IMG/VR virus record: IMGVR_UViG_3300043446_001152
Location: 1-31,752 of that record
Origin: a virus
Reading direction: 5' to 3' (one strand)
DNA length: 31,752 nt
The translations under genes were made by a program, and so were the position numbers. Below, piece by piece: positions 2,625 through 31,752 of this stretch. The first letter of the stretch is position 1; each line of letters begins with the position of its first letter. The notes beneath the pieces are model-generated. The model saw only the letters and a list, made by a program, of their open reading frames with translations, searched no databases and was not told where the DNA came from.

Positions 2625-2788
2625 TGGATTTGCCTATTAATGATAAAGAACTTGATACTATTGTAAAAGCACTTGGATTTGGTGGTGATGGTGCTCTTTA
2701 CCATAAACTTAAACTTGTAAAAGAACTTAAAGAACAAGGTTTACCTTATAAAAAAATACTTCGTGAAGAATATGGGATGGTATGCTGA
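2624..2788 (+). CDS. 54-aa hypothetical protein between gp43 and uvsX
   Basis: Short frame starting at the ATG that overlaps the gp43 stop (TAATG at 2622-2626) and ending in TGA that overlaps the next ATG (2786-2790). The protein (MDLPINDKEL...) is charged, predicted helical, and has no membrane segment or recognisable motif. Overlapping stop/start signals at both ends are the main evidence that it is real. It may be a small accessory factor of the replication operon, but no function can be assigned. Confidence 0.65.
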   Translation: MDLPINDKELDTIVKALGFGGDGALYHKLKLVKELKEQGLPYKKILREEYGMVC

Positions 2789-2925
2789 TGAAAAATTTAA
2801 TTAAAGTTAAGTATCAATTTAAAGATTATTCTAATTCTACTCTTTTTAAGTTCTTTAAAACTCAAGAAGAAGTAAATTCTTTTAAACTTAAAAATCCAAA
2901 TTATGTTTTTATTGGAGAAAAGTGA
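2788..2925 (+). CDS. 45-aa basic hypothetical protein upstream of uvsX
   Basis: Tiny Lys/Phe-rich frame (starts [11 protein letters not shown], ends YVFIGEK). Its ATG overlaps the previous stop and its TGA (2923-2925) overlaps the uvsX ATG. The unbroken chain of overlapping stop/start signals from gp43 to uvsX supports translation. No domain is recognised. Content is strongly AT-rich, like its neighbours. Confidence 0.6.
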
Positions 2926-3929
2926 TGGATTTTCTTAAGGACATTGTAAAAGAAATTGGTGGTGAGTATACACAACTTGCTTCCGATATTGATGAGACTG
3001 AGACTTATGTTGACACGGGTTCGTACATTTTTAATGCACTGGTTTCAGGTAGTATATTTGGTGGTGTATCTGGGAATAAGATTACTGCTATTGCTGGAGA
3101 GTCTTCTACTGGAAAGACTTTTTTCTCTCTCGCCGTGGTTAAGAACTTTCTTGATATTAACCCCAATGGTTATTGCCTCTACTTTGATACTGAGGCTGCC
3201 ATTACAAAGTCACTCTTGGAATCACGCGGCATTGACACATCACGCCTTGTCGTGGTTAATGTTGTCACAGTAGAAGAGTTTCGTGGTAAAGCACTTAAAG
3301 CAGTTGACCTTTACTTAAAAAAACCTGAAGGAGAGCGCAATCCCTGTATGTTTGTGCTAGACTCTTTGGGTATGCTTTCCACGAGTAAGGAGATTAACGA
3401 TGCCCTGAATGATAAAGAAGTTCGGGACATGACCAAATCTCAACTGATTAAAGGTGCATTTCGTATGCTTACCTTAAAATTGGGTCAGGCAAACATTCCA
3501 ATGATTGTAACAAATCATACCTATGATGTCATCGGTGCTTATGTTCCTACTAAGGAGATGGGAGGTGGCAGCGGTCTTAAGTATGCTGCTTCTACCATTA
3601 TTCATCTCTCAAAGAAAAAAGAGAAAGATGGTACAGAAGTCATTGGAAACATTATCAAAGCAAAGACTGCTAAGTCGCGTTTAAGTAGGGAGAACCAAGA
3701 CGTTGAAGTCCGTTTATTTTATGATGAGCGCGGTCTTGATCGCTATTATGGTCTTCTGGAACTCGGGGAACTCGGCGGACTCTGGAAAAATGTTGCGGGT
3801 CGTTATGAGATGGATGGTAAGAAACTCTATGCAAAAGAGATTCTTAAAAATCCAGAAAAATATTTCACTGAAGAAGTAATGCAAAAATTAGATGTGATTG
3901 CTAAAGGTGAATTTAGTTATGGGACATGA
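2925..3929 (+). CDS. uvsX: UvsX RecA-like recombinase
   Basis: Strand-exchange ATPase that loads on ssDNA for recombination-dependent replication and repair. The Walker A motif GESSTGKT is at residues 58-65. Walker B (FVLDSLG) has its Asp near residue 146. The [10 protein letters not shown] stretch fits the DNA-binding loop region of RecA-type proteins. At 334 aa it is shorter than T4 UvsX (about 390 aa) but matches cyanophage versions. A GTG lies one codon upstream (2922), but the ATG at 2925 overlaps the previous TGA and is the better start. The end overlaps the following gene by 4 nt (ATGA). Confidence 0.95.
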
Positions 3930-18900: not shown

Positions 18901-18908
18901 GATAAATA
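18901..18908 (+). promoter_or_regulatory. Putative late promoter GATAAATA
   Basis: One mismatch to the late consensus. With T4 spacing the start falls near 18914, inside the upstream arm of the inverted repeat at 18911-18937. Confidence 0.55.
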
Positions 18909-18910
18909 AT

Positions 18911-18937
18911 AGCTCATAAGATTACTTTATATGAGCT
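18911..18937 (+). promoter_or_regulatory. Inverted repeat covering the start codon of the GIY-YIG-like gene
   Basis: AGCTCATA (18911-18918) is a perfect inverted match to TATGAGCT (18930-18937), which contains the ATG at 18931. In an early transcript from 18889 it would fold and hide the start codon. Confidence 0.65.
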
Positions 18938-19386
18938 ATGAAAACCCTTGGATATACGATGGAGAAGTATTTGAGTTTTCTCATATTCAAGATTGGTTTG
19001 GTTTTGTTTATCATATTCACTGCACTACAACTGGGCGTAGTTACATTGGTAGAAAATATTTCTGGTCATTCCGCACACCAAAGGGAAAATCTAGAAAAGT
19101 TAAATCAGAGTCTGATTGGAAGCAATACTACGGATCTTGTCCAGAACTCAAAGAAGATGTAAAAAAATACGGTAAAGAATGTTTCCAAAGAAAAATATTA
19201 TCTTTGCATAAGACCAAGGGCAAATGCAATTTTGAAGAGACAAGACAACTTTTCCTAAATAATGTGCTGACCGAAGCACTTGACTCTGGAGTTCCTGCAT
19301 ACTATAATAGTAACATACTCTCCAGATACTTTAGGAAGGATTATTTTGATGGTTACCCTGGAACAGACCCTTCGGACATCACATGA
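18931..19386 (+). CDS. GIY-YIG-like endonuclease (SegE-like)
   Basis: 151 aa. The GIY-YIG signature is recognisable as FGFVYHIH (about residues 23-30) followed by RSYIGRKYF (about 36-44). Next come a basic SDWKQYYGSC segment and KKYGKECFQRKIL, the arrangement seen in Seg-type and related phage endonucleases. Such proteins are usually free-standing homing endonucleases, but in many cyanophages a copy is a stable resident. It has both an early and a putative late promoter and its start codon lies in a perfect hairpin. The next gene begins 38 nt before its stop. Confidence 0.75.
   Translation: MSYENPWIYDGEVFEFSHIQDWFGFVYHIHCTTTGRSYIGRKYFWSFRTPKGKSRKVKSESDWKQYYGSCPELKEDVKKYGKECFQRKILSLHKTKGKCNFEETRQLFLNNVLTEALDSGVPAYYNSNILSRYFRKDYFDGYPGTDPSDIT
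19280..19308 (+). promoter_or_regulatory. Sigma70-type promoter inside the GIY-YIG-like gene
   Basis: TTGACT (19280-19285), 17-nt spacer, TATAAT (19303-19308). Predicted start near 19315, upstream of the small gene at 19349 and the peptidase/lysozyme pair. Confidence 0.65.
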
Positions 19387-29517: not shown

Positions 29518-29525
29518 TATAAATA
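29518..29525 (+). promoter_or_regulatory. Late promoter TATAAATA for dps
   Basis: Perfect late consensus 20 nt before the Dps ATG. With T4 spacing the start is near 29531, giving a leader of about 14 nt. Confidence 0.8.
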
Positions 29526-29544
29526 CCTAAAAAGTATTGGTGTA

Positions 29545-30123
29545 ATGGAAAAATTATACAAACTCATTAGTGATGTGCAGGCAAATCTGTTTGTTCTTTT
29601 TCATAAGACTTGGGTTTTTCATTGGAATGTAGTTGGACCTGATTTTCAACAACTTCATACTCTATTCGGTGGGCAGTATGAAACTATGTTTGAAGAGATT
29701 GATCGTATCAGCGAACATATGCGTTTTATGAATGTTCGTCCAATTGGAACTCTCACCAGAATGGTTGAAGTTGCAACAATTGGTGAGGGATCGAATATTT
29801 CCCAAATTGATGAGATGGGCCAAAAGCAAATCATTCCTGGTAAACCAATTACAAAGGCAGAGGAGATGATTAAGCGTTTGATGCTTGATAATCTTACTAT
29901 TGTTGAGTTACTTACTGCCTTATCTGAAGAAGCAGAAGCACAGAAGCAATATGCCACAGCAAATCTATCTCAAGATTTGATGGAATCGCATGGTAAGTTT
30001 GTTTGGATGTTGAGGTCATTTACTGAAAAGACTGCTAAACTTTCAATCGAAGATTCTGAGCAAACACCAATTGAAGTTCCAGAAGAGCAACCTGAACAAC
30101 AAATTCAAATACAGCAACAATAA
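29545..30123 (+). CDS. dps: Dps-like ferritin-family protein
   Basis: 192-aa four-helix protein of the Dps family (DNA protection during starvation). The intersubunit ferroxidase ligands are present: H26 (HWNVVGPDF), H38, D53 and E57 (EEIDRISEHMR). Dps dodecamers store iron, detoxify peroxide and can bind DNA. The C-terminal ~30 residues are Gln/Glu/Pro-rich and extend beyond usual Dps. ATG 29545 is chosen because it lies just after the late promoter; the longer in-frame GTG start lies inside tRNA-Val. Late expression suggests protection of progeny DNA or iron handling late in infection. Confidence 0.88.
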   Translation: MEKLYKLISDVQANLFVLFHKTWVFHWNVVGPDFQQLHTLFGGQYETMFEEIDRISEHMRFMNVRPIGTLTRMVEVATIGEGSNISQIDEMGQKQIIPGKPITKAEEMIKRLMLDNLTIVELLTALSEEAEAQKQYATANLSQDLMESHGKFVWMLRSFTEKTAKLSIEDSEQTPIEVPEEQPEQQIQIQQQ

Positions 30124-30150: not shown

Positions 30151-30411
30151 ATGGAAAACTTACGCATTCGTTGCAAATCGTGCAACAGAGAAATAGAGGG
30201 GCATCCTGTAAAAACAATCAGTTGTGGGTGTTCAAATATGGCAACTATTCGTGCAAATACACATGTGTCTGCACTTGACTTATCGAGAGTTGTTATGCTA
30301 AACTCTATTCAGACAAAAACAAAATCTGGTGTTCTTACAAACGAAGACCTTGCTTTTCAAGAAGCAAGGCGTCAACGTAAAGTTAGACGTTTAGATTTTG
30401 AAGTCCGTTGA
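30151..30411 (+). CDS. 86-aa zinc-binding hypothetical protein
   Basis: Starts at ATG 30151. An N-terminal Cys set, CKSC (residues 8-11) and SCGCS (about 24-28), suggests a zinc knuckle. The rest is helical with a strongly basic segment (EARRQRKVRRLDF). Small proteins of this type are common in T4-like cyanophages, to my knowledge without function. It ends 10 nt before tRNA-Ser(TGA). Confidence 0.7.
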   Translation: MENLRIRCKSCNREIEGHPVKTISCGCSNMATIRANTHVSALDLSRVVMLNSIQTKTKSGVLTNEDLAFQEARRQRKVRRLDFEVR

Positions 30412-30421
30412 GGACTTTTAT

Positions 30422-30508
30422 GGAAAGACAAGCAGATTGGTGACTGCAACGCTCTTGAAAAGCGTCGAGGTGTTAAAGCCCTTAGGAGTTCGACCCTCCT
30501 TCTTTCCG
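30422..30508 (+). tRNA. tRNA-Ser (TGA)
   Basis: Class II tRNA: acceptor GGAAAGA/TCTTTCC, anticodon arm ACGCT-CTTGAAA-AGCGT, variable arm CGAGGTGTTAAAGCCCTT, T arm AGGAG-TTCGACC-CTCCT. No encoded CCA. Second serine tRNA of the window, reading UCA-type codons. Confidence 0.92.
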
Positions 30509-30579
30509 TTACAATGAATACAAAACTCCAATCTCAAAATCTTTATAATAATAACTAGTAATACTACGATACAAAACAA

Positions 30580-30729
30580 ATGGATTCTCACACCTTAAAC
30601 AATTGGGTGAAGATTAAAGAAACATTTGAAAAGTCTGGAAATACGGACAATCATTTTTATAAGAGAGCGTGTGCTATAATCAAAACTGGTAAAGATCCAT
30701 TAGAAAACTTTCTTGGCGGCAAAAAATGA
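30580..30729 (+). CDS. 49-aa hypothetical protein
   Basis: ATG 30580 (MDSHTLNNWVKIK...). Charged, helical, ends ENFLGGKK. Its TGA overlaps the start region of the next gene (ATGATGG at 30726-30732). An extended -10-like TGCTATAAT lies inside it (30672-30680). No function assigned. Confidence 0.6.
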   Translation: MDSHTLNNWVKIKETFEKSGNTDNHFYKRACAIIKTGKDPLENFLGGKK

Positions 30730-30899
30730 TGGAACCTTTTGATGATGATTATGTAACTTGTTCCGAAGTTCAAAGAATGATTGATGCCGCAATTGACAAA
30801 CATAACAAAACTGCATCGATTATATCTGCTTGCATCGGTTCAGTATTGTTGGGATTTTATGCTCATGGAGTTCTTGCAGTGATTGACAGGGTGAGGTAG
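30729..30899 (+). CDS. 56-aa single-span membrane protein
   Basis: Starts at ATG 30729 (or one codon earlier at 30726), overlapping the previous stop. An acidic N-terminus (MEPFDDDYVTCSEV) is followed by an amphipathic helix and one membrane span (SIISACIGSVLLGFYAHG). Similar small membrane proteins occur in other cyanophages, as I recall. Its stop is immediately followed by the inverted repeat that controls the HNH gene. Confidence 0.65.
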   Translation: MEPFDDDYVTCSEVQRMIDAAIDKHNKTASIISACIGSVLLGFYAHGVLAVIDRVR

Positions 30900-30948
30900 T
30901 TATAGTTTAGATTTTTTATAAATAATAATATACCAACCTAAACTATAA
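30900..30948 (+). promoter_or_regulatory. 11-bp inverted repeat flanking the HNH late promoter
   Basis: TTATAGTTTAG (30900-30910) is the perfect inverse of CTAAACTATAA (30938-30948). The second arm covers the region just upstream of the HNH start and includes the A of its ATG; the loop holds TATAAATA. Confidence 0.8.
30917..30924 (+). promoter_or_regulatory. Late promoter TATAAATA in the hairpin loop
   Basis: Perfect late consensus. The predicted start near 30930 leaves out the first arm, so late transcripts cannot form the hairpin. Confidence 0.75.
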
Positions 30949-31451
30949 TGAATAAAGATCTTTTACTTGAAATGTTGAATAATGGAATGTCTATGAATGA
31001 TATTTCAAAAAAGGAAAGTAAATCAGCAACAACGGTCAGATATTGGTGTAAAAAATATGGATTAAAATCTAATTATACTCCTATAAAAAATTCAAAGTCG
31101 AAACATAAATGTGGAATGTGTGGTGAAACTAATCCTGAAAAATTTTATGGGCATAAAAAAAGTGTATGTGGAAAATGTCATAATGGATATACATTAGAAT
31201 TGGGTCAAAAGAAAAGGGAGTTTATTATTAATACTATGGGAGGAAGATGCATTTCTTGTGGATATAATAAATATTCTTCAGCACTTCATGTTCATCATAT
31301 AGATCCGTCAAAAAAAGACCCAAAATTTGCCAATATTCGTTGTTGGAGTGAAAATAGGATACTTGACGAAATAAGAGGATGTGTGCTATTATGTGCTTGT
31401 TGCCATTCAGCAGTTCATGCTAATCAACTAATTCTCCCGAATGTCGCCTAA
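30948..31451 (+). CDS. HNH homing endonuclease
   Basis: 167 aa. Helix-turn-helix-like N-terminus (LLEMLNNGMSMNDISKKES then ATTVRYWCKKYG) for DNA binding; zinc finger CGMC...CGKC (about residues 55-80); HNH nuclease core with CISC, LHVHHIDPSKKDP (His pair), an Asn/Arg-rich helix and CACCHSAVH closing the zinc site. Free-standing HNH genes of this type are mobile and cut near their insertion point. Its last 15 nt are the 5' end of tRNA-Pro, and its start is held in the 30900-30948 hairpin. AT content is higher than in neighbours, consistent with transfer. Confidence 0.9.
   Translation: MNKDLLLEMLNNGMSMNDISKKESKSATTVRYWCKKYGLKSNYTPIKNSKSKHKCGMCGETNPEKFYGHKKSVCGKCHNGYTLELGQKKREFIINTMGGRCISCGYNKYSSALHVHHIDPSKKDPKFANIRCWSENRILDEIRGCVLLCACCHSAVHANQLILPNVA
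31363..31392 (+). promoter_or_regulatory. Sigma70-type promoter for tRNA-Pro inside the HNH gene
   Basis: TTGACG (31363-31368), 18-nt spacer ending TGC, TATTAT (31387-31392), an extended -10. Predicted start near 31399, about 38 nt before tRNA-Pro. Confidence 0.5.
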
Positions 31452-31512
31452 CTTGGTCATGGCACCACTTTTGGGAAGTGGAATAATCTCAGTTCAAATC
31501 TGAGCATTCGGA
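31437..31512 (+). tRNA. tRNA-Pro (TGG)
   Basis: Acceptor CCGAATG/CATTCGG, short D stem GCC/GGC, anticodon arm CCACT-TTTGGGA-AGTGG with TGG, T arm CTCAG-TTCAAAT-CTGAG. No encoded CCA. Overlaps the HNH coding end by 15 nt. A GCCAGT/ACTGGC hairpin (31515-31532) follows. Confidence 0.88.
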
Positions 31513-31536
31513 TTGCCAGTTACTTCACTGGCACAC

Positions 31537-31565
31537 TTGACTTAAAGGTCAAACCACACTATAAT
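31537..31565 (+). promoter_or_regulatory. Sigma70-type promoter after tRNA-Pro
   Basis: TTGACT (31537-31542), 17-nt spacer, TATAAT (31560-31565). Predicted start near 31572, upstream of the ATG at 31589. Confidence 0.7.
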
Positions 31566-31588
31566 AACAAGGCAAACAAATCAAAACA

Positions 31589-31752
31589 ATGTCGGTTACA
31601 ATCAAATTTAAGAAAGATCTTCAAACTCTTAAATCTGCTGCAAATGGTGAATTTTATCTTGATGTAAAGAATCCGAAACTTTATAAAAAGATTCGTCGTT
31701 ATTATGAAAATGAAGGAGTAGTATTTTCTGAAGACCCTCTTGACAATTATGA
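31589..31752 (+). CDS. 5' part of an unidentified gene (partial at window end)
   Basis: Open from ATG 31589 to the window edge, 54 codons. The visible protein (MSVTIKFKKDLQTLK..., ...YENEGVVFSEDPLDNY) is basic then acidic, with no recognised motif. A strong sigma70 promoter directly upstream suggests early expression. Confidence 0.6.
   Translation, partial: MSVTIKFKKDLQTLKSAANGEFYLDVKNPKLYKKIRRYYENEGVVFSEDPLDNY

Follow-up and report, generated by a model that had tools for sequence, protein, structure and literature searches.

An HNH endonuclease cassette with a proposed timing switch of its own at the 5′ end of a cyanophage tRNA-Pro gene

Anatomy of the HNH locus and its tRNA-Pro target

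The window analysed here, the whole 31.7 kb stretch of DNA, was IMG/VR record IMGVR_UViG_3300043446_001152, positions 1 to 31,752, and gave Kyanoviridae-like matches. Its HNH locus contained the following features:

30883–30911, + strand: remnant of a displaced tRNA-Pro promoter, recognised against empty sites L082 and L094
30900–30910, + strand: 5′ arm of a putative start-blocking hairpin, TTATAGTTTAG; also the approximate 5′ end of the mobile cassette
30917–30924, + strand: predicted late promoter TATAAATA in the hairpin loop, with a predicted late start at ~30930
30938–30948, + strand: 3′ arm CTAAACTATAA, spanning −10 to +1 of the HNH start
30948–31451, + strand: HNH homing-type endonuclease of 167 aa, matching PHROG 2255; dN/dS of 0.09–0.17 against relatives
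31363–31392, + strand: candidate embedded sigma-70-like promoter TTGACG-18-TATTAT with extended −10 TGC, inside the HNH ORF and under synonymous constraint
31437–31512, + strand: tRNA-Pro (UGG), the insertion target; ARAGORN, and Rfam RF00005 at 52.7 bits

The HNH identity given by the initial annotation was borne out by PHROG 2255 (HNH; E=2e-22); the match to Pfam HNH (E=0.009) fell under the gathering score. HNH relatives in viral contigs were gathered by protein search, tRNA pattern and profile search, and their alignment revealed C101, C104, H116, H117, C149, C152, H153 and H157 to be invariant, representing the His/His and zinc Cys pairs. A solved-structure search using this alignment returned no match.

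Perfect 11-bp arms with TATAAATA in the loop and a second arm reaching the A of the ATG had been described from the sequence, and these coordinates were exactly confirmed. The 3′ arm ends on the first base of the HNH start codon (ATG; ORF 30948–31451). Besides 30900–30910/30938–30948, the window contained no perfect 11-bp inverted repeat with arms ≤40 nt apart. Dinucleotide-shuffled windows contained a mean of 0.77 such repeats, so the whole-window count was dropped as evidence; because the repeat alone is unremarkable in an AT-rich window, the relatives must decide the hairpin case. A chance palindrome in AT-rich DNA would agree with this expected number but not with the position, as an 11-bp pair whose 3′ arm abutted the HNH start codon arose in only 0.12% of leader shuffles (P=0.0012), nor with the covariation and recurrence in relatives described below, and is highly improbable. 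No Shine-Dalgarno (SD) element was found in ATACCAACCTAAACTATAATG; the paired part is the SD-less start region itself.

The first 15 nt of tRNA-Pro(UGG) encode the last four HNH residues and the stop. The HNH gene ended inside tRNA-Pro(UGG) in 23/23 near relatives. It lay directly upstream of the tRNA at 58 of the 139 tRNA-motif loci, some of which came from contigs fetched twice, and was absent at the others, S-SRM01 included; it is an optional gene at a fixed site that is empty in relatives. The tRNA acceptor stem was paired in 164/168 loci.

Empty sites often had a TTGACA-17-TATAAT promoter ahead of the tRNA. The remnant in the window consists of TTGACA (30883–30888), 17 nt and then TTTAGA where empty sites have TATTAT. 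A TTGACA-17-TATAAT-type tRNA promoter was retained before the hairpin at several occupied loci (L008–L010, L013–L015, L053), so that both the complete hairpin and the tRNA would be present on read-through RNA. An intact tRNA promoter ahead of every cassette was considered at first and then rejected, as the −10 is displaced in the window group, L122 and many CATAAATA-first loci. Alignments of the window with L006 or L025 showed similarity beginning at ~30895–30900, so that the hairpin, promoter and ORF belong to a single unit, and the three kept together across differing upstream contexts. The initial annotation had recognised the hairpin and promoter, which stand, and had overlooked the tRNA-Pro target, the embedded promoter and a second case in the window. 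The element is probably a free-standing cassette of a putative HNH homing endonuclease.

The putative embedded promoter TTGACG-18-TATTAT was kept in groups A–C and was missing in the distant relatives L100, L145 and L154. Within the shared domain, the synonymous-difference ratio was lowest at codons 138–152: 0.35, versus a domain value of 0.73 (permutation P=0.0001). Codons closer to the tRNA were less constrained. The Leu-Leu codons varied (CTA TTA, TTA TTA, CTA CTA or TTA CTA) such that TATTAT or TACTAT was always left. T4 endonuclease genes also contain promoters of neighbour genes (PMC2988022). This constraint suggests that the embedded promoter probably restores tRNA-Pro expression.

Several further observations concern this site. 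Salmonella phage Arash (L030, 1501–1888) carries an unannotated HNH gene, with 61% protein identity to that of the window and 79% DNA identity over 81 bp, which also ends at tRNA-Pro, so that a phage whose host is distant shares this target. Two loci without HNH, L066 and L073, had apparent last HNH codons before tRNA-Pro (CAACTTATTCTCCCGAATG; ACCAATTCTCCCGAATG), perhaps remnants of loss. At ~1420–1620 of L027, upstream of an HNH relative, a tRNA-like sequence is seemingly split by a group I intron-like stretch. L016 (~2730–3160) and L019 (~2720–3190) encode a second HNH gene near tRNA-Met, with TATAAATA inside a possible hairpin that is farther from the start codon. The tRNA-Pro and tRNA-Ser of the empty site in S-SRM01 (L002; 3872–3947 and 1608–1696) are missing from the features annotated in this stretch of that record. 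An Rfam search of 30350–31752 at the gathering threshold listed no tRNA, whereas E-value mode scored tRNA-Pro (31437–31512) at 52.7 bits, where the cut-off is 29, indicating that fast filters can miss such tRNAs.

Hairpins and late promoters ahead of HNH relatives

NATAAATA has been described as the late-promoter motif of cyanophages, viruses that encode gp55 (PMC2984593). ATAAATA was on the coding strand in 14/15 occurrences in the window, with NATAAATA 28–38 nt ahead of several ORF starts, and in HNH relatives the late motif was found at −28 to −36. The match to the published motif (PMC2984593) and the spacing support TATAAATA as a predicted late promoter, as first proposed; if the T4 late-promoter distance applies, with TATAAATA occupying −13 to −6, the late 5′ end is predicted at ~30930. 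The motif was missing from several distant HNH relatives outside cyanophages. CTAAATA replaces ATAAATA in L189 and L190, where no block is predicted.

The leaders of the relatives followed three designs. Design A/B (the window, L005–L013, L122) has the late motif in the loop, as does a distant group, L196–L203, with 33–37% identity; these read TATAGTTTAG..TATAAATA..CTAAACTATA-ATG or TAGTTCAG..TATAAATA..CTGAACTA-ATG. In design C (L014–L026, L042–L105 and others) NATAAATA comes first, giving CATAAATA-ATGGTAGA..TCTACCAA-ATG, and the predicted late start is inside the 5′ arm. A third set (L217–L233) has TATAAATAGATTAGA..TCTAATCT-ATG, represented in L218 by AGGTTAGAA/TTCTAACCT. Perfect arms of at least 7 bp at the start codon were present in 26/37 HNH leaders, compared to a mean of 2.2 and a maximum of 7 in 200 shuffles. 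The HNH ORF of L025 (2001–2500), and also that of L146, is apparently frameshifted, with hairpin, promoter and embedded promoter intact.

Compensated arms (ATGGTAGA/TCTACCAA, ACGGTAGA/TCTACCGA and TTTGGGAA/TTCCCAA) preceded HNH genes down to 30% identity. Double-sided changes were found in 4/8 pairs of the design C alignment, in which 90% of cells pair, and in 3/12 pairs of the A/B/distant alignment, in which 89% of cells pair; for the latter the number of double-change pairs alone was non-significant (124/500 shuffles). The covariation score was 0.151 for design C, reached in 0/500 shuffles and in no slid version, and 0.169 for A/B/distant, reached in 0/500 shuffles, with values of 0 to 0.125 when partners were slid in both alignments; as these shuffles keep the relatedness of the sequences, the figures are supportive and are not probabilities. 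G-U intermediates were present in both alignments. Arm co-variation across HNH loci had been named beforehand as the refuting test, and compensation was found, with neither score reached by shuffling. The strongest point of the covariation case appears to be the replaced arms of L100 and L145, which, at only ~30% identity, have TTTGGGAA/TTCCCAA in the same place (TTTGGGA/TCCCAAA in L145).

The two RNA forms were then compared by the energy needed to open −14 to +3 at 25 °C. The window start was predicted to require 9.8 kcal/mol in the read-through RNA and 1.3 kcal/mol in the late RNA. Across 39 leaders the predicted means were 11.3 and 5.9 kcal/mol respectively, and the start was more accessible in the late form in 36/39. 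When the leader upstream of −15 was shuffled, many relatives exceeded 97–100/100 shuffles and the window only 88; its opening cost was reached by 12/100 shuffles, the hairpin being A-U rich, and is not decisive alone. Two late genes in this window that share the motif (11231 and 17577) had open starts. The claim that late transcripts lack the first arm was upheld in that the motif lies in or beside the 5′ arm across relatives, all or part of which is predicted to be lost: the whole arm in the window, 3–8 nt in most CATAAATA-first leaders and 1/6 nt in L014. The CATAAATA-first late RNA would retain part of the 5′ arm, so that release would be partial.

A SegE-like gene and other late-promoter genes

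A second hairpin of the same design was present in the window:

18901–18908, + strand: predicted late promoter GATAAATA of the SegE-like gene, directly before ATAGCTCATA
18909–18939, + strand: arms ATAGCTCATA (18909–18918) and TATGAGCTAT (18930–18939), with the start codon inside the 3′ arm
18931–19386, + strand: SegE-like GIY-YIG endonuclease, Pfam PF19835, E=1e-52

In SegE-like relatives the 3′ arm runs into codons 2–3, that is, the coding start itself. Pairing of at least 7 bp between leader and start, G-U allowed, was found in 30/36 distinct leaders (shuffles: mean 4.3, maximum 9), with compensatory changes in L270 and L315. Unrelated hairpins occupied the same place in S-SKS1, S-CREM1, S-SCSM1, SynMITS9220M01 and ACG-2014d. 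Motif and hairpin were both absent from the SegE-like leaders of S-TIM4, S-RIM2, P-SSM4, S-CAM8 and S-SSM7. The SegE-like GIY-YIG gene (18931–19386 in the window) carries the label 'NAD synthetase' in many cyanophage records, ACG-2014d, S-TIM4, P-SSM4 and others among them, and in PHROG 447, which is very probably a propagated misannotation.

As a control, 143 genes with ATAAATA 22–45 nt upstream were taken from ~1 Mb of cyanophage-like DNA and scored for perfect arms of at least 7 bp at the start that began upstream of the predicted late start. Such arms were present in 39/67 endonuclease-like genes versus 15/76 others (P=2e-6), with classes assigned partly by eye and families non-independent. 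Most of the non-endonucleases with hairpins were either a Dps-like gene that follows tRNA-Val or a lipoprotein-like gene, which suggests that the design may serve late genes in early-read regions generally. At 29518–29547 the window has the TATAAATA leader of a Dps/ferritin-like gene that comes directly after tRNA-Val, and some relatives of this gene in L048, L090 and L147 have arms at the start codon.

These comparisons bear on two other readings of the repeat. It could be a DNA operator to which the endonuclease binds, repressing its own late promoter; for I-TevI, the operator bound by the protein overlaps the late promoter (PMC2988022), and here too the repeat surrounds the promoter. The recurring G-U pairs, however, preserve RNA pairing and break DNA symmetry, the arm sequences differ wholly from one close HNH group to another, and again in the unrelated SegE-like genes, while the geometry to the ATG is constant, and the SegE-like 3′ arm is the coding start itself. 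An operator is an improbable explanation of the repeat, although operator and RNA roles could coexist. Alternatively, the hairpin could act otherwise on the RNA, as a terminator, a 5′ stabiliser or a tRNA-precursor processing site. The cassette does lie within a tRNA cluster with processed RNAs, and RNase E processing has been reported for segB and mobE transcripts, but the stem is not followed by a T run, terminator prediction gave no call at the HNH hairpin, no Rfam family matched it, and every group, as well as both unrelated gene families, has its 3′ arm at the start codon, making such a role less probable still. The predicted start-blocking switch is widespread in cyanophages and common to unrelated nuclease genes (HNH and GIY-YIG).

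Comparison with known switches and proposed mechanism

Hairpin/late-promoter control is known for I-TevI, II, III, segB and mobE (PMC2988022). The logic first likened to T4 I-TevI and Aeh1 mobE agrees with the published account (PMC2988022), except that no SD is hidden. In T4 I-TevI, as in I-TevII and I-TevIII, a hairpin on the read-through RNA blocks the start and a late or middle promoter gives a later RNA without the 5′ arm (PMC2988022), as predicted here; those genes are intron-encoded with a hidden Shine-Dalgarno, whereas the present gene is free-standing at a tRNA gene and its SD-less start is hidden. Aeromonas phage Aeh1 mobE, likened here by its description, is also a free-standing HNH endonuclease with an RBS-sequestering hairpin, but is in a ribonucleotide reductase gene, a different insertion site. 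T4 segB is a free-standing endonuclease in a tRNA cluster with a predicted late promoter and hairpin, as here, although it encodes a GIY-YIG protein between tRNA-Arg and tRNA-Ile and not an HNH protein whose ORF overlaps tRNA-Pro. The early RNAs of T4 late genes e, soc and 49 are similarly folded at the start, and the late RNA of gene e is without the 5′ strand (PMC3014915); unlike the gene here, these are not mobile nucleases. T4 segG, segA, segE, mobB and mobC likewise hold the promoter of a downstream host gene within the endonuclease ORF (PMC2988022); in the present case it is a tRNA that lies downstream, and the candidate promoter was recognised from synonymous constraint.

What is new compared to the known switches is their presence in cyanophages, the tRNA-Pro target overlapping the ORF, the SD-less stem, the embedded tRNA promoter and the unrelated hairpins. 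No earlier report of the switch in cyanophages was found in a limited literature search that reached few subscription papers.

The explanation we favour, and consider likely, is an HNH cassette at the tRNA-Pro 5′ end with its own timing switch and an embedded tRNA promoter. On early read-through RNA of the tRNA operon, the arms would fold over the HNH start and prevent translation. At the late stage of infection, transcription directed by the phage late sigma system would begin at TATAAATA inside the hairpin, and the resulting RNA, without the 5′ arm, would leave the start open for the nuclease to be made. The sigma-70-type promoter in the HNH ORF would keep tRNA-Pro expressed despite displacement of its original promoter. 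Start blocking with late release, as initially suggested, is supported by covariation, promoter placement and predicted accessibility.

We tentatively suggest, as a possibility only, that the switch also protects the tRNA, with early RNA serving the tRNA, late RNA serving the nuclease and the embedded promoter acting as insurance, so that the cassette would be an expression-neutral module reinvented by several cyanophage endonuclease families with unrelated hairpins. An untranslated cassette on early RNA would leave tRNA-Pro free to fold and be processed; translation of the HNH ORF would instead drive ribosomes into the tRNA, whose 5′ end doubles as the ORF end. The suggestion is made by analogy with I-TevI, in which early translation disturbs intron folding (PMC2988022).

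These results extend a T4 regulatory principle to cyanophages, and the covariation indicates that the switch moves together with the mobile gene and has reappeared, in the form of unrelated hairpins, at HNH and GIY-YIG genes. They also make it testable whether endonucleases are restrained early on account of their harm to the phage or of ribosomes disturbing the RNA of the invaded gene, here a tRNA rather than an intron. The SegE-like version is present in the cultured phages S-SKS1, S-CREM1, S-SCSM1 and SynMITS9220M01, in which direct tests are possible.
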